Positions 44,180-61,108 of a DNA stretch of 64,000 nt are shown one piece after another (position 1 is the stretch's first letter; each line of letters starts with the position of its first letter). The stretch is taken from positions 62,001-126,000 of the forward strand of contig NZ_QKMF01000014.1 of the NCBI RefSeq assembly GCF_003208435.1, read 5' to 3'. The position numbers were made by a program, and so were the translations under genes. This DNA is from Pelagimonas varians. GTDB taxonomy: Bacteria > Pseudomonadota > Alphaproteobacteria > Rhodobacterales > Rhodobacteraceae. A model generated the notes under the pieces. The model made no database searches and was not told the origin of the DNA. It saw only the letters and a program-made list of their open reading frames with translations.

Positions 44180-44223
44180 TGGAACTTCAACACTTGGTGG
44201 GGCTGTGCACGCTGTGGTGGGTT

Positions 44224-44286
44224 TGTTGTAGCTGTTGTAGCGTGACACTCGATTCTACAGTAAATTACACTTGGATTTACAGCAAA
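44224..44286. repeat. Repeats at the putative right end of the Mu-like prophage
   Basis: TGTTGTAGC occurs twice in tandem (44224-44241). TCTACAGTAAA (44254-44264) and TTTACAGCAAA (44276-44286) start 22 bp apart. Mu-like phage ends begin with TG and hold spaced transposase sites, so 44224 is a candidate prophage boundary. No matching left end was found. Confidence 0.4.
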
Positions 44287-44374
44287 ACAGTTTTGAGCTC
44301 AGATGGGATGATCTGGGCGGTTCGAGGCAAAACCGTTTAAACAGCCACCCTGCCCCGATCCATTCAACACCGGT

Positions 44375-45280
44375 TTAACGCTCCTTCAATAGCTCGTCCT
44401 TCAAATCGACATACGCGCGCGCTCCAGCCATTGGGACCACCCCGTTACCGGCCCCAGCGGATCTGTCCAACCCGAAGGCCACCCCATCATCCAATCCGTG
44501 AACGCAGGGTTTATGCTCAGAGGATCGCTTGAGTGCTTCTCCCCACTCAGCAAGATCACCCGGAAGCGGTGGGAAGAGCGGAACCGCCCCGGCGTCCAAC
44601 CCGCCGCCCCCAGCATGTCCCACATCAACGTCTATGCGCTGGCCGCATTCTTGATCCCGACCTGCGATACGATCTGATTGAGATCCGTCTTGAACTGGAT
44701 CCCCGCCGGACTGCCCACAATACATGCCCGGTTCCCCGTCCCCTTGAATGTCGGCGTGGGCCAGAATGAACACCCTTTCGCGGGTATGCGATGCGCCGAC
44801 TTTCGCCGCTGATACGACGCGCGCTGCAACCCGGTAGCCCATTGCCTGAAGGTCAACGCAGACGTCTTGCAGGCCAAGGGTGAGATGGCCGGGGACGTTT
44901 TCGAAGAACAACCATTCCGGCGCGACTTCGCGGGCGATGCGGGCCACGTCTGGCCACAGGTGCCTAGGGTCGCCTTCGCCTTTCCTGAGCCCGGACAGGG
45001 TGAAGGGCTGGCACGGATAACCGGCAGAGATGAGATGAACGCGGCCACGCCACGGCTTGCCATCAAAGGTTTTGAGATCGTCCCAAACAGGGGCCTGATC
45101 CAAAGACGCGTCCGCCATCCGCGCCACGAGAGTGGACGCGGCAAAACTGTTTCGCTCGACATAGCACACAGTTCGATATCCGGGCTGCGCGATGTGAAGC
45201 CCAAGATCAAGTCCTTTGACACCAGCGCAAAGACTGATGCCGCAAAGGTCTTTAGGTTGGATTGGGGGATGAACAGCCAC
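44375..45280 (-). CDS. Phage cytosine-C5 DNA methyltransferase
   Basis: The 301-residue protein is a C5 cytosine methyltransferase. Motif I is AGVKGLDLGLH near the N-terminus, motif IV with the catalytic Cys is SAGYPCQPFTLSG, motif VI is FFENVPGH, motif VIII is SHTRERVFILA and the final motif X appears as AGNGVVP. The target recognition region is short, so specificity cannot be read. It starts with GTG at 45280 after GGAGG and overlaps com by 29 bases. It is intact although most of the prophage is broken. No restriction partner is visible, so it is an orphan enzyme. Confidence 0.88.
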   Translation of the reverse strand: MAVHPPIQPKDLCGISLCAGVKGLDLGLHIAQPGYRTVCYVERNSFAASTLVARMADASLDQAPVWDDLKTFDGKPWRGRVHLISAGYPCQPFTLSGLRKGEGDPRHLWPDVARIAREVAPEWLFFENVPGHLTLGLQDVCVDLQAMGYRVAARVVSAAKVGASHTRERVFILAHADIQGDGEPGMYCGQSGGDPVQDGSQSDRIAGRDQECGQRIDVDVGHAGGGGLDAGAVPLFPPLPGDLAEWGEALKRSSEHKPCVHGLDDGVAFGLDRSAGAGNGVVPMAGARAYVDLKDELLKER

Positions 45281-45470
45281 ATAGGGCCTCCGTTCCGTCG
45301 CGCTCAGCTACCTTACATAAGGGGCGCTCTGGGTTCGGGCTCTGGTATGGCCTCAAGTTATTGATGGACCGGCAGCGTGGGCATTTGATCGATAGATCAC
45401 CCACAAGCGCGTCCGGCTTCACCTTGAATAACAAACCCGCACAAGATGTGCATCTGATTTCTTCATGCAT
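45252..45470 (-). CDS. com: Com-family zinc-finger translational regulator
   Basis: The 72-residue protein matches Mu Com. It has two CxxC pairs (Cys 7, 10, 30 and 33) around KVKPDALVGDLSIK, and the typical NLRPYQSPNPERP segment. In Mu, Com is a zinc-binding RNA-binding protein that opens the mom mRNA to allow translation of the DNA modification enzyme. Here the gene overlaps a cytosine methyltransferase instead of mom, which suggests an equivalent control of that enzyme. The C-terminal 20 residues are variable. Confidence 0.85.
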   Translation of the reverse strand: MHEEIRCTSCAGLLFKVKPDALVGDLSIKCPRCRSINNLRPYQSPNPERPLCKVAERDGTEALCGCSSPNPT

Positions 45471-45610
45471 ATTTACAGCGACTCAGCTCATGGTGCCGGT
45501 CCCTGATCAGGGGTGGGAGCGGCCATAACGCTTATGCTGGTCGGCGGGGGCTTCTTTAGCGAGTTTGGCCCCGTGTTGCAGAGCGTTGCTGCGCTCTGTG
45601 ACCTTCCTTT

Positions 45611-45664: not shown

Positions 45665-47110
45665 TTAGGTAACTTTATGCAGTTGCCACACAAACTTGAC
45701 GTCTGTCATCGGGTCCACATCCAAGAACACAACGACATCTATCGCGGTTACGTTGAATGCGTATTTTGTTGCCGCGCTGGCAATCCAGCAACCGGTTGCG
45801 TCGGGCACGACCGGTAAGGCCATGTTGCCGGGGTCCGCCGCCAAACCATGCGCCACCGAACAGGATATACTGCTGCTCCACACGGTTATCTCACCAGAGG
45901 CAAAAGCGCCATAGGAGGGAACCCACTGCGTGCCGTCAAAAAACGCCATTGCCTGATCGAACTGCGCGCAAGCGACAACCTGCATCCCCTTGAACGGAGC
46001 GCCGCCATTCAAAGCCGCCATTTCTGCCCATGTGAACGAGCCCGCGAACAAAATTTTGTTGTCTAGCTGTGTCCGGCTGTTTGCAAATGTAACCGTCTCG
46101 GCGTGTTTGCGCGGAATATGGATCGTGTTGTTGGTCGAACCTGCCCCGATCAAAACACCGCCAACGATTTTTGTAAGAAACACCTTGCATGAGCGCGCAT
46201 TGTCCAGATCCAAAGCTGCCATGCCGTTGACCTCGGTTCCCGGCAGAAGAGCGAACCCGTCTAGCGCCAAACCGGCTGAATCGCCGAGTTTGATCCCAGT
46301 GCCATTGGACGGTGTCGCTGCCAGATGAACCTGCGCCGATCCGGCTACGCCGCCCGCTAAAAATACCTCATCCGCGTATTTCCCGCTAATTTTGAGGCTC
46401 AAACCGTTCAAGTCACCGGAAAGAACATTCGCGCCCCAAGCGCAGTTTGCATCATCACCGCCCGTGATTTCCAAAGAGCCCCGCACCTCCGCTCCGTCTA
46501 TCTGCAGCCCGCCGTCGCCATACATGCCGACACTGCGGATAATGCCCCGAACGTCCCACCAACCTTTTTCAAGCTTGGCTCCGTAGGATGTGGACTTCTC
46601 ACAGGCAAAATTGATTAAGCCTTTCATCTTGTCCGAGCCGGACGCCGCGAAAAACGTGTCACAGTCGTGAGCCACGACATTCAGCAAAAGCTCGTCCGGT
46701 GTTGCACCGCTGCTTTCATTGACCAGCACTCCGGTCCCGCACCGGTCAACATGTAGATCGAATTTGGCAAGTTCGACATTGCCCGTAATATGCGCGCCAA
46801 AATCACATTCAACCGCTGCAACTGTTGCCTTCGACCGGCCACGCTTCAACCGCATAATTTCCACGCCCGTCACTTCGCCATTATTGCCTCGGTTGCCGTC
46901 AACTTGGATATCAATCTCAGCCCAATACGGCGACGAAACTGTCGATACGTCTATTGAAACCAGCGGCGACATATTGGCGTCATCTGGCTGCCGGAACACC
47001 ACGCCTGTTCTTTGCAAGACTGACGCGGCGCTGCGCATGGTCAGTGTCGAGGGCAGCGGAACAACGCAGGCCGCATGGTCTGCGTATAGCTTCACCCCGC
47101 CAGCCGTCAT
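45665..47110 (-). CDS. Phage tail-fibre-like protein
   Basis: The 481-residue protein is not clearly assigned. It lies where tail fibres or receptor-binding proteins are encoded, after the tail tip gene, and shares a TGATG overlap with it. The sequence is rich in short Gly/Asn/Asp-turn repeats with many valines and isoleucines, as in right-handed beta-helix fibres (for example the region with GGDDANCAWGANVLSGDLNG). The C-terminal 130 residues look like a separate domain (FDGTQWVPSYGAF). The frame is intact, unlike most of the neighbouring structural genes. Receptor unknown. Confidence 0.6.
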   Translation of the reverse strand: MTAGGVKLYADHAACVVPLPSTLTMRSAASVLQRTGVVFRQPDDANMSPLVSIDVSTVSSPYWAEIDIQVDGNRGNNGEVTGVEIMRLKRGRSKATVAAVECDFGAHITGNVELAKFDLHVDRCGTGVLVNESSGATPDELLLNVVAHDCDTFFAASGSDKMKGLINFACEKSTSYGAKLEKGWWDVRGIIRSVGMYGDGGLQIDGAEVRGSLEITGGDDANCAWGANVLSGDLNGLSLKISGKYADEVFLAGGVAGSAQVHLAATPSNGTGIKLGDSAGLALDGFALLPGTEVNGMAALDLDNARSCKVFLTKIVGGVLIGAGSTNNTIHIPRKHAETVTFANSRTQLDNKILFAGSFTWAEMAALNGGAPFKGMQVVACAQFDQAMAFFDGTQWVPSYGAFASGEITVWSSSISCSVAHGLAADPGNMALPVVPDATGCWIASAATKYAFNVTAIDVVVFLDVDPMTDVKFVWQLHKVT

Positions 47111-49260
47111 CAAATGGTGGTCTGCTGCAGCAGGCGCTGCGACCAGGTGCGGCCACCCACCACCCGCGACCCTCGTTCCCGTCTCACCAAGGTCTGTAAC
47201 CGACGAGGCAACGAATGCTGCATCCGTCTCGAACCTTGGTCCAACGAGCCATCCTCATCGGTGGCGACATCTCCGACATTGGCGTAAACATGCGCGCCAG
47301 CATCATCGACCACCACAAATTGCCCGCCATCGCCAGTGGCCGCGAGGCCCGCTGCCGTATCGCCGTAAACGCCAAGGCCCGAGGCCAGCGCCGCCGCCAG
47401 TGCCATGCTGGCGGCGTTGGCAGATTGCGCCGCTTGCACCGTCGCGGTTAAAGCACTTGCCTGCGCGCCAGACCGATCCACCGATGCGGCGGCGGCGTCA
47501 GCCATGGCACCGGCTTGAAACAAACCCGCCCCTTGCGCACTTGCCTGTGATTTGGCGGCGTGGTGCCGGGCCGAATAGGCCCCGGCTTCGACCTCGGTGT
47601 TTTCTGCATCATGCGCCCATTTTTGAGCCACAGCAGCAGCGGCGGTGGTGGTTTCCGTGCTGTTTAGACCTGCAATCTCGGCCCATACGACGTCATCACT
47701 TCCAAGGATTGGCGTGCCATTCACCATCCAGGATGTGCCTTGGCTAACTGTCCCTTGCGATACAAACACCGCTGCAACCGCCAGCTCTGCGCTGCTGTCA
47801 GCCCCCGGGCGCACGGCTCCAAGCGCCCGCCGTCTCGACGATATAAATTCCGTTTTGTGTGCCATCACTTTGCCCTGTGACCAGCACCCTGCTTCCATCA
47901 GTCAGCACAACACCGTCGACGGTGGCCGCTCTGGACAGGCCAATGTTTTGCGTTGCCGCCGCCGCACCAGAGCTGCCCAAAATCTCGGCGGTGTCCCCAG
48001 CCGCCGCGCCCAACATCCGGTGCTCAACACGAATGGACCGGATGTAAATCGCATCCGATCCGGTCACACTGGCCCCGATCACAATCTCGGTTCCGTCGAT
48101 ATCAATGCCCGCCAGTTCGGAAACACTTGGCAGGCCAAAGGACGGACTGGCCTCGCCAATGATTGGCGTCCAGTCCGAAACCACATGCGCCACTGCCAAG
48201 GCATCAAGGCCCGGCGCACCATTGACCCGCGCTAGATGTACGGCCATGTCTTCTGCCGGTTCAACCGCAATGATGTGGGCGGCAAAGCTGTCTTCGCCAA
48301 GATATGGCCGGTCAACTGTGTCCAAAATCGTCACCAGCCGCGTAGTCCCTATGGTGCCGGACACCTGCGCAACAACCGACGCGCCGATCACGTCATCAAC
48401 CCCGTCGAACACCCGAAACCGCAGCGCATAGATCTGCCCCGCAATCATCTGAAACTCTTCGTCCAGCTCGGCCGCCGCGCCCTCGGTCAGCACCACCCGC
48501 GCCGCAACCTGCGCGCTGTCCAAAACATAATGTGACAGCATCACCATATCGCCGCGTGTGGCGACCCGCGCCGCCCCGTCTTGAATGACCGAAAACCGGT
48601 CCGGGCGCAGCGATACTTCATGCATCCGGCGCACCGCTTCGATCTCAACCTCATCGGGATCTGTTTTGCCCTGAATCGACAGCTCTTCGGTCAGATCAAT
48701 CGGCCCCTCATGCCTCAACCAAGGGATGATCTTCTCGGTGCTCTCCCAACTGTTTGTCTCATCCGAGAACCGCACCCGCAGTGTATCAGGCAGATCGACA
48801 TAGGTCCGCTGCCCGCGAAACCGGCGGCTGTTGCGCGGCGAGATTTGATCGACAATCACGTCTTGCGGCCGGTCGATAACGACGTTCCACAGCGCGCCAT
48901 CGCGACGCGGCTATGCCCGCCCGGCCGTGCAAATCGCACTCAGAACAGCGGAAAGGGACTCGTTCGCGCGATGCCTGCGGTCATTCTTCAGGCCCTGCGC
49001 TTCGCAACAGGCGTGCCAGTCTTGAACGGCCGGCCAATCGATCTCGTTTGTGGCCGCCGAAAAGGTATAGGCTGGGCTGGCCAGCCGATACCCAATGTAA
49101 CCGATCTCCGCCAGCGTCCCGAAGAAAACCGCGTTAGGCCCAATGAGTCCCAAACCACCAACCCCGCCAAAGGCAGCACCGGCCAAATGGGTCACATAAG
49201 CCGCCGCCTGTATGGCAGCGATACCACACCGCCTGGAATGATCCGGATGATCACAGTAGC
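47110..49260 (-). pseudogene. Tail tip / host-specificity protein (gpJ-like), broken
   Basis: Fragments in three frames join into one tail tip protein. The 5' part (about 49250-48910) has NEIDWPAVQDWHACCEAQGL and ends after AVLSAICTAGRA. A frameshift near 48900 leads into the 47798-48859 frame (NVVIDRPQ, then ISPRNSRRFRGQRTYVDLPDTLRVRF). A second frameshift near 47810, in a run of C and G, leads to the last part with QGTSWMVNGTPILG and a long Ala-rich helical stretch. The true N-terminal half of a gpJ protein is missing. Confidence 0.75.
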
Positions 49261-49283: not shown

Positions 49284-49798
49284 TCAAAACAGAAACGGCT
49301 CGGTGATCGGATTGGCCCCCAGCCAGTTTGACCGCGTGCCATAAAGCAGATGATCGGTGGACAGCCGTCCGGTCGGGTCGGATGAACCCCGCACCGGCGC
49401 GTCCCAATCGGCATGATCAACATGCAAGAGCACAACCGAGAACGAGAGTGCAAAAGCCCCCCCTGCAAGGGACCTCCAAGTGGGGGTTCATCGCCCATTA
49501 AACACAGCCAGTTTGCCGCCATCACCAGTGGCTCATCTTGGGGTGACAGCAGCGCCTCCCCATCCGGCGCGATCATTGGCCAGCCATCGCTGATTGGGTT
49601 GGGCACCCAGAAATACGCGGTGCCAAAGCCCAAAGTCACGTCATGAAACTGATCAAATATCTGCTTTTGCACACGGGTCAACATCATCTGCAAAGACAAG
49701 GTCCGAGCCACTGACAAATAGCGGCGGCCATAACGCGACGGGCAGGATTCCGTGCTGCGCGTCGGCTTGCGCAAATCAGCGGGCCATGTGTAAATCAT
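49284..49798 (-). pseudogene. Phage minor tail protein, frameshifted
   Basis: The start MIYTWPADLRKPTRS and the core VTLGFGTAYFWVPNPISDGWPM are well preserved. The frame shifts near 49460, after GDEPP. The correct frame then continues with FSVVLLHVD and ends DHLLYGTRSNWLGANPITEP. One indel therefore destroys an otherwise recognisable tail protein of the type found between tape measure and tail tip genes. Confidence 0.65.
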
Positions 49799-53241: not shown

Positions 53242-53669
53242 CAGATGAAGCCCTTCATGTTTTGCGCCGTCATCGGGCGTTCTCGGTCTGTGACCTGCGC
53301 CCCGCCTGCCCCGCGGCTTTTGGGGACAACGCCTAAAGCGTCGAGCTGAACAATACCTTTTGAGATGTCCTAGAGGGTCGCAATGGCGCGTTCATAATCG
53401 CGCGCAATCTTCGCCGACGGTTCATACACATGCAGATTGTAAATCGCGATCCGGCGTGCCAAAACACCTAGCGGATCCGGGATGCCCACAATCGGCAACA
53501 CATAGCGCGCCTTCAGATAGCCATTGATTTCGCCAACAGCATCAGCAATCGCACGCGCCGCCACATCGGTATCAACAACACCCGTGGCAATTTCTGCCCG
53601 ATCGGTCACATCAACCAGCAGCTTCGTGCCGTAGTGCTCTTCCAGCTCTGATTGCGTGGTGTAGGTCAC
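53241..53669 (-). pseudogene. Mu gp36-like protein (DUF1320) with premature TAG
   Basis: The GTG start at 53669 (after GGAG) gives VTYTTQSELEEHYGTKLLVDVTDR, a clear DUF1320 start, followed by ARAIADAVGEINGYLKARYVLP. A TAG at 53370-53372 follows RAIATL. Beyond it the same frame continues DISKGIVQLDALGV and ends with the family's usual NMKGFI. A single nonsense change therefore truncates the protein by about 43 residues. Confidence 0.75.
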
Positions 53670-53817
53670 TTTAGTCTCCGTTGCTAATTTGAGGGCGAAC
53701 TGCGCTCCTACTTTCCAATATCTCCTGCACCGCTGTCGGCGGCGGTCTATGGGTGCTGACGGGCTTACGCCTCGGACCAGACCCCTCTCGCTGGGTATCT
53801 CGAAATAAATAGCCCAG

Positions 53818-53836
53818 CGGCGGTGTGGCACCGCCG
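53818..53836. repeat. GC-rich hairpin between gp36 and the gp35-like gene
   Basis: CGGCGGTG and CACCGCCG form an 8-bp stem around TGG. No T-tract follows on the minus strand. The surrounding 53670-53880 has no gene. Confidence 0.45.
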
Positions 53837-54174: not shown

Positions 54175-55057
54175 TCACGCCAGCCAAAGCACAACCAGCA
54201 ATTCAGCCGAGCCTTTCCACTCATTGGTCTCGCCGCCCGCCACATATTCGCTGTTGAGAAGCTTGCGGCCTGCGTTTTCCAAACTGGGCCGCACCACCAA
54301 CAGATTTGGCCACCCCCAGTGGGCGGCCATAGTCGCCCTTCATTCCCGTCAACGCCGCGCGGGCCGAAGTATAGCTCGCCCCATCCACCGCTTACTTTGA
54401 TCCCCAAGCCATTTACCAAAACCCAAACCCTGCGTTCATGCAGGCATCCGTGCCGTAGACAAATTCGTTCTCATCAAAAACATTGTCGTCGGTCAGCTTG
54501 TCTTTGGCCGTAAACTGAAAGTCCTTGCGCTTTTGCAAGATCAATGGCTTGAGCGCAGGGCTCGTATCCATAAGAAACCACCAAGCCCCAGCTCCACCAT
54601 CAGTGTTTGCAACTGTTGTGTCTTTGCCATCTTTGCCCAAGGCCGGATGATCAGTGCCGAAAAAGCTTTGACCGTGGTAACAATCGGTGGTTCAGCCTTC
54701 CTTCAATAACGCAAAAATCGAGGTGTCAGCATAGTTGCCTGATGACCGGCCCATTTCCGAAAACATCGGCCCGACGATACCAAGATTGTCGGCTTCAACA
54801 TCATTACGATCCACACCGATGGTCAGCCCGAGTTTCTTTTCCTTATTGGCATAATCATGCTGTTCAGGACTTTGGACAGCCCGCTTGCCGATCCATTCGC
54901 GCACGTTAGGCATTTTCCCAACCAGCCATATTTTCCTTCTTTTTTGGCTAGACCGGACCTCGGGGCTCCAATGCGACAGCGCTTCGGCCAGCCCGCCTTT
55001 GAAAGCCCCGGAAAAACCGGTACGCAGGGCATTTAGATTTGCAGCGTTAACTAGCAT
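54175..55057 (-). pseudogene. Mu-like major head subunit (gpT), broken
   Basis: The N-terminus MLVNAANLNALRTGFSGAFKGG is a clear gpT start. Two compensating frameshifts surround KKEGKYGWLGK. The next parts are EQHDYANKEKKLGLTIGVDRNDVEADNLGIVGPMFSEMGR, then after a stop GKDGKDTTVANT and PALKPLILQKRKDFQFTAKDKL. The C-terminal part in another frame ends ELLVVLWLA. The capsid gene is therefore inactive. Confidence 0.8.
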
Positions 55058-56390: not shown

Positions 56391-56966
56391 GGCGGCTCTA
56401 TCGCCTTCAAACGCGCGCAGGGTCTAGCGGTGGCTCAACAAGGGAACCTTGCCATTCGAGTTCACTTCAAGGGCCGCTGTGCGCAGGTTGGGACCTTTGC
56501 GAAGTTGGGCCATAAAAAGGTTCACAAGGAACGAACAGCCCAAAGCTGCTGCCCACAAATGTCGACTTTGCTCGTTGCCGTTTCACCAAAGAGGTCGTTC
56601 ATGAATCTCGCAGCATCAGCGAACTGAATGCGCAGTTCAGGGGTGAGCGGCACGACAATGACACCCGTAAGTTGCAGATTCGATTAAGCAAAATTAGTTT
56701 CCCAGAACCAGCGAAAGCGTCGTAGGTTAACCCACGGCAATTGATGGGGGAATACAGCCGGATTGCGTCTTCTCGTGCCTAACGTACAGAAGAATTTGCG
56801 CCAATTACCTTACTTGGCGCTGCATCTGGCGCCGGCTTCTAAATATTTTGGCAATCCTAAGGGGATTCCGGACCGGTACGGCTCGAATTAGCTGTGATTG
56901 GTGTTGCGCGTGCGTGGTCGCGGCGCTCGGAACTGTTTGCCGAATTTCAACAAGGGACACCCAATT
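56391..56966. other. Gene-free junction between prophage and FG-GAP gene
   Basis: I see no intact gene. The first 40 bp still look like the end of a lost phage gene on the minus strand. The rest presumably holds the promoter of the FG-GAP gene, but no convincing -35/-10 pair stands out. Confidence 0.4.
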
Positions 56967-59387
56967 ATGCCGAGCATCAATGGACTAACGAACCCATTCG
57001 AAAATTCGATCCTGAATTCCAACCTGTCTCAGCTGGAAAAAGAGAAGCAGATCACGAACTACAACAATGCGATCTCTCAGGGCTACGAGCCCCCGGTAGA
57101 AGTGCTGGAGGAGATCGCCGCGCTCATCGGATCAGATGTCCTTTCCCCCGAGGCCACCGACCGCTTGCAATTGCTGCAAGACCAGATCATGGCCGAGATT
57201 GGCCCAGTTATTACATCCAATGGCGGCGGCGAGGCTGCCGCCCTGATACTGGACGAGGGCACCTCGCTGGTCACCACGGTCACTGCGCTGGATAACTATT
57301 CACTGAATGGCACGGATTCATTGACCTTCTCGGTCGTTGGCGGCGCAGATGCGGGGCTCTTCTCGATTGACGCAAACGGCAATCTGACTTTCAACGCGCC
57401 ACCGGACTACGAAGCCCCTGTCGGCGGCGACAACGTCTATGATGTGGTGGTTCAGGTGAACGATGGCAGCACCCTGTTGGACACTCAGACCTTGCAGATT
57501 ACCATCGCCGACCTGAACGACACGGCCCCGGTGATCACCTCGGCTGCCAGTGTTACAATTGATGAAAACACCACGGCGGTCACCACCGTGACATCCACCG
57601 ATGCCGATACTGTCGGCACGGTCACCTATGCCATCAGCGGTGGTGCGGACGAACTGCTCTTTTCCATCGATCCTGCCACCGGCACGATAAGCTTTGTCGA
57701 TGCTCCCGACTTTGAGGCGCTCGGCTCGGCTGCGGGTACAAACGTCTATGACGTTCAGGTCACCGCCTCGGACGGCATCCAAAGCGATGTTCAGAACCTG
57801 AGTGTTTCCGTCGCGGATGTGAGCGAAGGCCCACTGCTGCCCGCAACTTTTGGGGTTACCTTTAATGGGGCCGCTGGCGGCGATCGCGCCGGGATTTATG
57901 TATCCTAAGCTGGGGATGTAAATGGTGATGGGGTCGATGATCTTATGATCGGCGCTTATGGCGCTGGTAACAACTATACCGGTGCGGCGCATATCGTTTA
58001 TGGCTCTGAGACACCTTTTAATGCCACCTTCGATTTGGGCAGTTTAGACGGCACCAATGGCTTTACCTTTGATGGTTTGAACCAGCGCGATTACACAGGC
58101 GGACATGTGTCTTCTGCAGGGGATGTGAACGGCGACGGATTTGATGATGTTATTATCGGGGCCTATGGTTCGGATGTGACTGCGTCAGCCGCGGGTCAAA
58201 GTTTTGTTGTTTTTGGTAGTGCTGCGCCTTTCGCCGCCTCGTTTGATCCAACCGATCTTGACGGCGTTAACGGTTTTGCCATCAACGGGGTCAATGCCGG
58301 TGATGTTGCGGGCATTCGTGTCTCGGATGCGGGTGATGTGAACAATGATGGGTTCGATGATGTTCTTATCGGCGCATATGGTTCAGATACAAACGGATCC
58401 AGCTCGGGCACAAGTTATTTGGTTTTCGGCAGCGGCAATCCTTTTGATCCAAGCATTGATCTAGCGAGCTTGGATGGCAGCAACGGTTTCGCGATGAACG
58501 GGATCGGGTTTCAAGACCTAAGCGGTCAATCCGTCTCTTCGGCGGGCGATATAAACGGTGATGGGATTGATGACATCCTGATCGGCGCACAATGGGCCGA
58601 TCCCTACGGTTCTAAATCTGGCGAAACCTATGTGGTTTTCGGTAGTGATACACCCTTTGCCGCCAGCATCGAACTTTCCAGCTTGGACGGCACCAACGGA
58701 TTTACCCTCAAAGGGGTTAATGCCGATGACCTAAGTGGCGGTGCCGTTGCCGCTGGGGGGGACATAAACGGTGACGGATTTGAAGACATCCTGATCACCG
58801 CGCATTGGGCCGATCCCAACGGTTCTAAATCTGGCGAAACCTATGTGGTTTACGGCAGCGATACACCCTTTGCTGCCAGCATGGATTTGTCCAGCTTGGA
58901 CGGCAGTAATGGGTTTGTCATCAATGGGATCGATGCAGATGATTTTAGTGGGATTTCTGTGTCCTCTGCGGGTGATGTAAACGGCGATGGGTTCGATGAT
59001 ATTCTGATCGGTGCTTTTGGAGCAGATCCGAGCGGAACATTCTCTGGCGAAACCTATTTGGTTTACGGCAGCGACACGCCGTTTAGTGCCAGTATGGATC
59101 TGTCGTCACTTGATGGGTCAGATGGTTTTGTCTTTAACGGGATCGACGCAAATGATCGCAGTGGCTATCGGATTTCGGGCGCTGGTGATGTGAACAACGA
59201 CGGCTTTGACGATATGCTGATCGGTGCTTACCTTGCAGATGCAAATGGCGTTACCGAAACTGGCGAGAGCTATCTCGTTTATGGCGGAGGTGCGGTGCTA
59301 ACAGCGTTTGACGCCGCCGACGGCGTTTCAGACGGCTCAATCCAGTTGTCAAATCTGGCTTCGGCACCGGAAGATTTCATCGTCTAA
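56967..59387 (+). pseudogene. Cadherin-like and FG-GAP repeat protein, interrupted by one TAA
   Basis: The frame runs 806 codons (805 residues plus one internal stop). An N-terminal helical part (about residues 1-75) has no signal peptide. Two cadherin-like beta domains follow (about 80-195 and 190-300, with SIDANGNLTFNAPPDYEA and SIDPATGTISFVDAPDFEA). Then come seven FG-GAP repeats, each about 65 residues, with the calcium motif DxNxDGxxDxxIGA. Codon 314 (57906-57908) is TAA where all other repeats have Ser, a one-base change from TCA. The C-terminus ends hydrophobic, as in type I secreted proteins. It would be a large adhesin-like exoprotein. A separate downstream product from 57945 is possible. 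Confidence 0.8.
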
Positions 59388-59561: not shown

Positions 59562-61108
59562 GATTGTGTTGAAAAACTCTTCGGTTTCAGCCTGTCGAAG
59601 TCAGCTATCGCGTTGATTTATTTTGAATGTCCCTAAGTCGACCACCTTTTATCCGGTGGCGGGCACCATTGGCTTGAGTTTTGCTAGTTTACGGAGGTTT
59701 TGGGCGGTAGCAGCGAGGGTAAATTCGTCCTGGACGCCACATGGGCCACGTAATCGGAGCCTGCCCAATCCGAGGATGCGTTTGAGATGTGCGAAGAGCA
59801 TTTCGACTTTTTTGCGTCGGGCCTGAGCCTTCGGATTGAACTCCGAGTCTGTGCATGCTCGGGCAAAGTCTCTGACAACTTCATATTTCTCTCGATGAAC
59901 CGAACGCCTTTCAGCGTTAGGGCAGCACTTTGCCTTTAATTCACATCCTGTGCAGTCTGACATCAGGGCTCGATAATTTCTGGCTTTCCAAACTGGCGCA
60001 TTTCGGGCCGGATCGGAATAGTTTCGCCTCGTGTGCAACATCTCCTTGCCACCTGGGCAGATGTAGCGGTCGTTCTCGTCATCCCAAGTGAAGTCGGACC
60101 GCGAGAAGGTGCCGTCTTTGCGTTCACCTTTGTCAAAGACTGGGATGAACGGCAGGATTTTCCGCTTCAGTGTCAACCAAACCAGATTGTCGGCAGCACC
60201 ATACGCGGTATCAGCGGCAATCCAATCAGGCTTCACACCAAAGCGCTCTTCGGTGCGGTCGATCATCTTGTGCATGGCTCCTACCTCGGCGGTTCTATTC
60301 GAGCGGCTGGCGTCGACGTCCATGATGATGCCGTGGTCTGTATCGATCAGATAATTGGTAGAATAAGCAAAGAAAGCGGGGCCCTTGCGGGCTGCTGTCC
60401 ACTGGCTAGCTGGGTCCGCATGGGCCGTGAACTTGGGTTTGGTCGTCGTGGCCGCACCAAAGGCTTCGTCGTCCAGCGTGTCGAGATATTCTCGCACCGC
60501 ACGCGGTGCATCATCGGCGTCAGCCATACGGGCGGCCCAGTCTTCGGGATTGCTGGAGTTCTGTTTCTGGACATCTGCACTGATCAAGCTGGCATCGATG
60601 GCAAATCCCTGACCGCCCACAAGCCTTTCTTCCATGCAGCGCGCGACTGTCGTCTCAAATACGTGGCGCAACAAGTCGCTCTCACGGAACCTACCATGGC
60701 GGTTCTTTGAAAAGCTGGAGTGGTTAGGAATCCGATCAGTCAAATCAAGGCGACAAAACCAACGGTAGGCAAGGTTCAGATGAACCTCTTCGCAAAGCCG
60801 ACGCTCAGAGCGGATGCCAAAGCAATAACCCACCAGCAACATCCGGATCAGCAACTCAGGGTCGATGGAGGGGCGACCAGTGTGGCTGTAGAAATCTGAA
60901 AGATGCGCACGAATACTGCTCAGATCGACAAACCGATCAATCGAGCGCAGCAGGTGGTCTTGTGGGACGTGATCTTCCAGAGAGAACTCGTAGAAAAGCG
61001 CCGCCTGTGCCTCCTGCATCGGTCCCATCATCGCCAAATCCCCCAATCAATAAGGGAATTGAATCAGCGATTGACGCTTCGATCAAGCAAGAGTTTTTCA
61101 ACACAATC
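59562..61108 (-). mobile_element. Complete IS1182-family insertion sequence
   Basis: The element is 1547 bp. Its ends are perfect 20-bp inverted repeats beginning GATTGTGTTGAAAAACTC (59562-59581 and 61089-61108). The tetranucleotide AGCC flanks it on both sides (59558-59561 and 61109-61112), consistent with target duplication. One transposase gene fills the element. Removing it joins two stretches of non-coding DNA. Confidence 0.85.
59649..61046 (-). CDS. IS1182-family DDE transposase
   Basis: The 465-residue transposase is intact. It has the N-terminal DUF772 domain (YSHTGRPSIDPELLIRMLLVGYCFGIRSERRLCEEV and SSFSKNRHGRF), the catalytic Asp in GFAIDASLISADVQK, a second Asp in IAADTAYGA, and the C-terminal Glu region around KKVEMLFAHLKRILGL. 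A cysteine cluster (DCTGCELKAKCC) typical of the IS1182 family lies before the final domain. The lack of any frame damage and the perfect repeats suggest recent arrival. Confidence 0.9.
   Translation of the reverse strand: MGDLAMMGPMQEAQAALFYEFSLEDHVPQDHLLRSIDRFVDLSSIRAHLSDFYSHTGRPSIDPELLIRMLLVGYCFGIRSERRLCEEVHLNLAYRWFCRLDLTDRIPNHSSFSKNRHGRFRESDLLRHVFETTVARCMEERLVGGQGFAIDASLISADVQKQNSSNPEDWAARMADADDAPRAVREYLDTLDDEAFGAATTTKPKFTAHADPASQWTAARKGPAFFAYSTNYLIDTDHGIIMDVDASRSNRTAEVGAMHKMIDRTEERFGVKPDWIAADTAYGAADNLVWLTLKRKILPFIPVFDKGERKDGTFSRSDFTWDDENDRYICPGGKEMLHTRRNYSDPARNAPVWKARNYRALMSDCTGCELKAKCCPNAERRSVHREKYEVVRDFARACTDSEFNPKAQARRKKVEMLFAHLKRILGLGRLRLRGPCGVQDEFTLAATAQNLRKLAKLKPMVPATG

Follow-up and report, generated by a model that had tools for sequence, protein, structure and literature searches.

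A com-methyltransferase pair in a decayed Mu-like prophage of Pelagimonas varians and the predicted Com-type hairpins at its junction

The 64,000-nucleotide stretch of Pelagimonas varians DNA analyzed here (the window) carries, on its minus strand, a gene for a homologue of the phage Mu regulator Com directly 5' of a DNA-modification gene. The features of this junction are the following.

45252-45470, minus strand: com, encoding a 72-residue zinc-ribbon translational regulator (Pfam PF10122, phrog_6417)
45338-45352, minus strand: hairpin I, inside com, with a 3-pair GGC/GCC stem and the loop C-ATACCA-GA
45300-45327, minus strand: hairpin II, inside com at the place of the Mu Com site, with a GCGC/GCGC stem and a 20-base loop
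45287-45291, minus strand: GGAGG ribosome-binding site, read from the sequence, 6 bases 5' of the methyltransferase GTG
45252-45280, minus strand: overlap of 29 bases between the com end and the methyltransferase start
44375-45280, minus strand: C5 cytosine DNA methyltransferase of 301 residues with a GTG start (PF00145, phrog_363)

The Com protein matches Pfam Zn_ribbon_Com (PF10122) with 36 bits against a cut-off of 22.9 (4.8e-9) and phrog_6417 at 2.5e-9. Both CxxC pairs are present, with the four Cys aligned, and compared to close relatives the protein has five additional residues (alignment A1). The methyltransferase matches PF00145 with 103 bits (cut-off 22, 2.5e-29) and phrog_363 at 1.4e-53, and the motifs PCQ (PCQPF), ENV (FENV), RER, and GNG (GNGV) are readable. 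Its catalytic part matches two relatives of solved structure, M.HhaI and M.HaeIII, both in sequence and in a Foldseek comparison of a structure model (TM about 0.45). The quality of this model is moderate, with a mean pLDDT of 61.6 and residues 179-242 below 50. The first-pass annotation had described the 29-base overlap and the GGAGG site, and both are as it described them. It had also called the two genes intact, which holds for the reading frames, both of them open, but not for the loop of one hairpin and a residue of one motif, which are altered.

The genes beside the module include remnants of head and tail genes of the Mu type (gpT, Gp36, and tape measure).

54178-55057, minus strand: broken major head gene of the Mu gpT type, with three stops and a frame change
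53373-53831, minus strand: Mu Gp36-type head-tail gene, with a stop relative to phage homologues
51196-51561, minus strand: tape-measure gene remnant
45665-48859, minus strand: three adjoining open frames upstream of com, with family matches (virion or tail-fiber-like) in the third only (47798-48859)

Ten of the 27 plus-strand open reading frames of a phage contig (L305) match the window, and nine of these ten genes are damaged, damage being scored as stops, a change of frame, or a match limited to a minor portion of the gene. The earlier description of a decayed Mu-like prophage is thus borne out. The sole match free of stops, at 49487-49786, covers 114 residues of a 140-residue L305 gene. 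The head gene is 71-84% identical to its L305 homologue, a 143-residue virion gene shows a frame change relative to L305, and a protease-type gene has two stops across 171 of 372 residues. For the tape measure, 49 of 822 residues are matched in L305, and of the 931 in L306, 48 are matched plus another 185 with three stops. Pfam recognizes gpT and Gp36 in part only, and the picture is similar with more distant phages. A family scan of part of the open reading frames between 43 and 58 kb found no Mu transposase among those scanned. On one contig, that of L045 and L316, a similar methyltransferase (67%) is found together with a similar head gene (65-75%), so phages of this type can carry the module. 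At 56898-59387 and 59649-61046, cadherin-type and FG-GAP repeat genes on the plus strand adjoin the remnant, followed by a minus-strand DDE transposase gene. The next genes on the host side we take, judging from their open reading frames, to be mraZ and its neighbor.

The pair recalls com-mom at the right end of Mu (NC_000929), where a Com gene likewise overlaps a DNA-modification gene, with the difference that the partner there is Mom (PF25680) and here a C5 methyltransferase of family PF00145. The literature, in the text available to us, treats Com as a translational regulator of Mu mom, and PMC6483171 describes binding to hairpins with CC(N)2-3GAG and six-base loops, with GA protected, beside the mom start. 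With the mom GTG set at L217:908 in line with that description (the CDS in the record starts at 878), a C..GA-loop hairpin lies 16 bases before it, compared to 18-22 bases in the rows of our alignment of com-C5 junctions (A3, below). A plain scan for a 4-pair stem with a C(N)2-4GA loop finds one hairpin in the Mu com region, a single match at the published Com motif. Mu further has its GUG start within an inhibitory stem, whereas in A3 the GTG is conserved and its pairing is little above that of synonymous controls. Among other Mu-like phages, Com is described in SuMu (PMC3447690), and a Mu-like phage of Mannheimia is described as having no typical com-mom module (PMC4553209).

Com is also found next to enzymes other than Mom. 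In Pseudomonas phage B3 (AF232233, ORF47/48), it overlaps a DNA methyltransferase and is annotated so, but the enzyme is of Dam type and the pair sits in mid-genome. In Stenotrophomonas phage Smp131 (Peduoviridae), a Com-like gene overlaps a methyltransferase, but the phage is not Mu-like and the enzyme is annotated only as a site-specific DNA methyltransferase. Tandem hairpins are present in both. Since Com is annotated beside Dam in the one and beside a methyltransferase in the other, the pairing itself was already known. A comparison of Mu-like prophages from 2002 reportedly noted com before Dam-like genes. None of the open-access literature searched, as far as its text was available, describes Com hairpins preceding any enzyme gene but mom, or Com hairpins shared between loci, nor does Rfam contain such hairpins for the junctions checked: the window junction gave nothing at E values up to 1, and L217, L219, L220, L221, and L021 gave only a tRNA in L021 and matches below the cut-off.

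By a strict motif search, 49 distinct junctions have com directly 5' of a C5 methyltransferase, 6 of them in bacterial genomes (the window included) and 43 in viral contigs; the abundance of the cassette in viral contigs points to a phage function first. GTG is called as the methyltransferase start in 48 of the 49. Two junctions, L177 (TTG) and L080, have wrong starts, picked by the script downstream of the common GTGG, and were left out, so that A3 comprises 47 junctions. Among genomes of the family, 12 of 394 have a Com match over the cut-off, the window's own genome included, and some C5 methyltransferase match, in many cases weak, occurs in 41 of 101 related genomes. At L007, L008, L011, and L013, related C5 methyltransferases without a recognized com lie 3' of an apparent N4/N6-type methyltransferase gene. 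At many com-C5 loci (L133 and L137, for example), a second frame stays open for 320-350 codons across the methyltransferase gene, probably as a matter of base composition.

A conserved RNA hairpin at the junction, which the first-pass annotation had proposed looking for, is present across the 47 junctions as a covarying hairpin with a C..GA loop. The columns of A3 were compared in all pairwise combinations, and a pair was kept if at least 85% complementary with mutual information above 0.35. Five pairs were kept. Two of them, ranked first (71-98) and third (74-95), mark the two ends of a single 4-pair stem within com, which is hairpin II, and the second (5-99) looks like a lineage split. With hairpins I and II taken as the structure, 95.4% of cells are paired versus 85.7% after shuffling, and 31 cells hold double changes versus 10.6 after shuffling and at most 8 when the structure is slid. 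All of these double changes fall in hairpin II, where both of the end pairs, 71-98 and 74-95, join third codon positions, one being Watson-Crick in 38 of 47 rows (shuffled mean 13.3, maximum 26 among 10000) and the other in 46 of 47 (shuffled mean 33.8, maximum 40). The stem of hairpin I is 99.3% paired but invariant and hence without covariation. Codons near it look frozen, with Arg as AGG in 45/47 (0.077 of Arg codons elsewhere) and Ser as AGC in 47/47 (0.266 elsewhere). The loop starts with C and ends with GA in every one of the 47 rows, for hairpin II and hairpin I alike.

Several observations count against gating of the methyltransferase by Com. A 4-pair hairpin II is missing from 9 of the 49 strict junctions, the window among these, and tandem hairpins under the 4-pair rule occur in 0/47 A3 rows, where hairpin I has 3 pairs and does not covary. 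RNAalifold on A3 returns hairpin I only. Hairpins occur at 46 of 57 C5 junctions with a recognized com, but also at 7 of 53 without one (among these L169, from the Com search). A long hairpin masking the methyltransferase start, striking in single folds, was set aside as little above synonymous controls: start-codon pairing is 0.81 versus 0.75 with com synonymously recoded, and ensemble energy against recoded com has a mean z of -0.56, negative in 32/47 junctions.

Hairpins of the same kind lie before unrelated enzyme genes. Of 92 Com loci, 90 had enough sequence for the plain scan, and with genes classed by motif only, matches occur before C5 methyltransferases in 39/47 versus 1/47 in a stretch further on, before other methyltransferases in 15/20 versus 1/20, before other genes in 12/17 versus 1/16, and in a mixed class ("C5?") in 2/6 versus 1/6; L125 and L211, both among the C5 loci without a match, represent the window itself. 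Pfam applied to single genes behind Com identifies D12 (L142), N6_N4 methyltransferase (L162), Mom (L161), and an ABC-type ATPase with GNAT (L199, L207).

Six named Pseudomonas, Stenotrophomonas, and Moraxella phages were the first in which two hairpins in tandem were seen. A scan with the Com proteins of five of the six yielded a separate set of 80 loci, of which 64 were kept (2 short and 14 identical ones dropped); none of these junctions is shared with loci L001-L216, and 18 share 80% identity or more with one of the six initial phages. A hairpin is present in 62/64 and a tandem in 49/64, versus 6/64 and 0/64 in the control stretch and 0.098 and 0.0006 in shuffles. The tandem starts are 22 bases apart in 37 junctions, 20 in 7, 25 in 4, and 19 in 1. 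Grouped at 85% identity, the 64 junctions form 26 clusters, with hairpins in 24 and tandems in 19, and when clusters close to the six initial phages are removed, the counts are 21/23 and 16/23. In an alignment of the 64 junctions and the six phages (A7, 59 distinct rows), RNAalifold alone returns exactly two hairpins, with double changes in 6 of 8 pairs; 96.8% of cells are paired, and 58 double-change cells stand against 12.8 after shuffling and at most 4 when slid, the rows being related and the cells not independent events. The 4-pair homologue of hairpin I covaries in A7. By motif, the genes behind these hairpins are C5 methyltransferases (21), DPPY-type (20), Dam-type (9), Mom-like (5), and unclassified (9).

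Two further kinds of protein encoded behind Com deserve mention. At some ten Com loci besides L199:3337-4422 and L207:232-1302, as at these two, where Pfam was applied, a protein of about 360 residues combines an ABC-type ATPase with a GNAT acyltransferase and is perhaps a Mom-like DNA modifier; the gap between Com and this gene may hold a small gene. At L146, a Com hairpin locus is followed by a protein of about 490 residues that, by reading, resembles ParB-type proteins.

For the com-C5 family, then, gating by Com is well supported as a prediction from sequence, by covarying Mu-type hairpins at the junction and in the wider sets. The corresponding proposal of the first-pass annotation stands at the level of the family, where hairpins of the Mu Com-site type are predicted, but the copy in the window has an altered hairpin II.

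Relatives in the genus bear on the history of this copy. Two stretches flanking the module are shared with one of them, G001.

44220-44381: stretch with 81% identity to same-genus G001, reaching the methyltransferase end
45478-45576: stretch before com, kept in G001 (82%)

G001 retains the flank (83.6% and 81%) and about the last 26 methyltransferase codons (82%); com and the rest of the methyltransferase were not found at the shared site. About 0.5 kb is inserted at the end of its methyltransferase remnant, with 11 bases on both sides, and this insert (L375:1576-2097) holds a 173-residue frame. At the same site, G002 has the flank only and no trace of the module. Because both the stretch before com and a methyltransferase stub are found in G001, the insertion seems older than the split. 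The module seems to have been lost in one lineage while the frames stayed open in the lineage of the window.

The window copy departs from its relatives in several respects. Its 20-base hairpin II loop is found in 1 of 47 junctions, the other 46 having 5-7 bases, and the five extra residues of Com sit at this enlarged loop. Beside this loop, the window has the 3-pair hairpin I. Residue 22, in SAM motif I, is K in the window versus G in 34 and A in 10 of 44 other com-linked C5 methyltransferases, G or A at this position being a trait common to the com-linked enzymes and not one that defines the C5 family. Three departures from near-invariant columns tie the window with L028 and L069 as the highest of 45. 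On the other side, dN/dS, which had been suggested as a check, is ordinary, at 0.36-0.48 between the window and five close relatives and 0.38-0.59 among the relatives. Private changes (10/180 columns) show no excess over L024 (10/180) and L212 (9/179). In a substitution-only simulation, both frames remain open in 0.036 of runs at 0.10 changes per site, which is half of the flank divergence by our own estimate, and in 0.19 at 0.05, a hint of retention but no more than that.

These features are what a module in plain decay might look like, its frames still open through chance or a recent onset of decay, with no expression at present. Such an account falls a little short of an even chance. The altered hairpin II, K22, and the loss in G001 agree with it, as does the finding that no promoter-like site precedes com on the com strand in the window, an observation also counted against Com gating. 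The simulated frequencies and ordinary dN/dS pull the other way, as does the fact that the extra 15 bases of com are in frame. Given an altered hairpin II and an unusual motif I, we consider weak or absent function of the window copy no less likely than retained function.

The first-pass annotation had instead suggested that the cell kept the module, as a Com-gated methyltransferase without a restriction partner that could now methylate the host genome and serve it. This could coexist with the phage cassette favored below, but we find it unlikely. Two frames open beside damaged genes, the low simulated frequencies, an insertion that apparently predates the split from G001, private changes in line with those of L024 and L212, and dN/dS in the ordinary range are all compatible with retention. 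Against it stand the loss in G001 and the lack of any trace at the G002 site, a hairpin loop unique to the window, the lysine in motif I, and a count of near-invariant departures tied for the highest. Retention by the cell is therefore not established, and we lean against domestication by the host. More improbable still is translational coupling alone, in which ribosomes ending com would restart at the overlapping GTG and Com would not act on the hairpins: the 29-base overlap and the good ribosome-binding site suit it, but across the 49 junctions com ends anywhere between 40 bases ahead of the called start and 53 bases past it, the loop C and GA are kept in 47/47 and resemble those of the Mu Com site, and enzyme genes of unrelated kinds follow the element.

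The reading we favor, with a probability of roughly three in four, is that of an anti-restriction cassette of phage origin whose translation Com controls, the copy in the window being open but probably aging. As a late cassette of a Mu-like phage, it would work through Com binding to C..GA-loop hairpins that lie where the com gene ends, a short way ahead of the methyltransferase start. Bound Com would raise translation of the methyltransferase, as Mu Com does for mom, and phage DNA would become C5 methylated and so escape host restriction. The anti-restriction purpose is suggested by analogy with Mu mom, for which such a role is described (PMC4461284). Binding of the hairpins by Com together with increased translation would explain their position, their loop bases, the covariation at the level of codons, and the exchange of enzymes behind them.

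A broader reading, toward which we incline somewhat, is that Com may be a general RNA-guided gate and not one specific to Mom. Its operator, judged from the predicted hairpins, would be a portable element inside the com end, made up of a single C..GA hairpin or, in many cases, of a pair spaced by about 22 bases, which may let phages swap unrelated modification enzymes (C5, N4/N6, Dam-type, Mom, and ATPase-acyltransferase fusions) under a common translational switch.

The window itself, as an aging copy, is of modest meaning, and the predicted Com operator, shared and in many cases tandem, carries more weight. Should the hairpins prove to be an operator in common use, Com would be a widespread means by which phages time enzymes that are potentially harmful to the host. 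A gene of unclear role behind a com tail could then be guessed to encode a DNA-modification enzyme, and these loci would provide new Com-RNA pairs for study.
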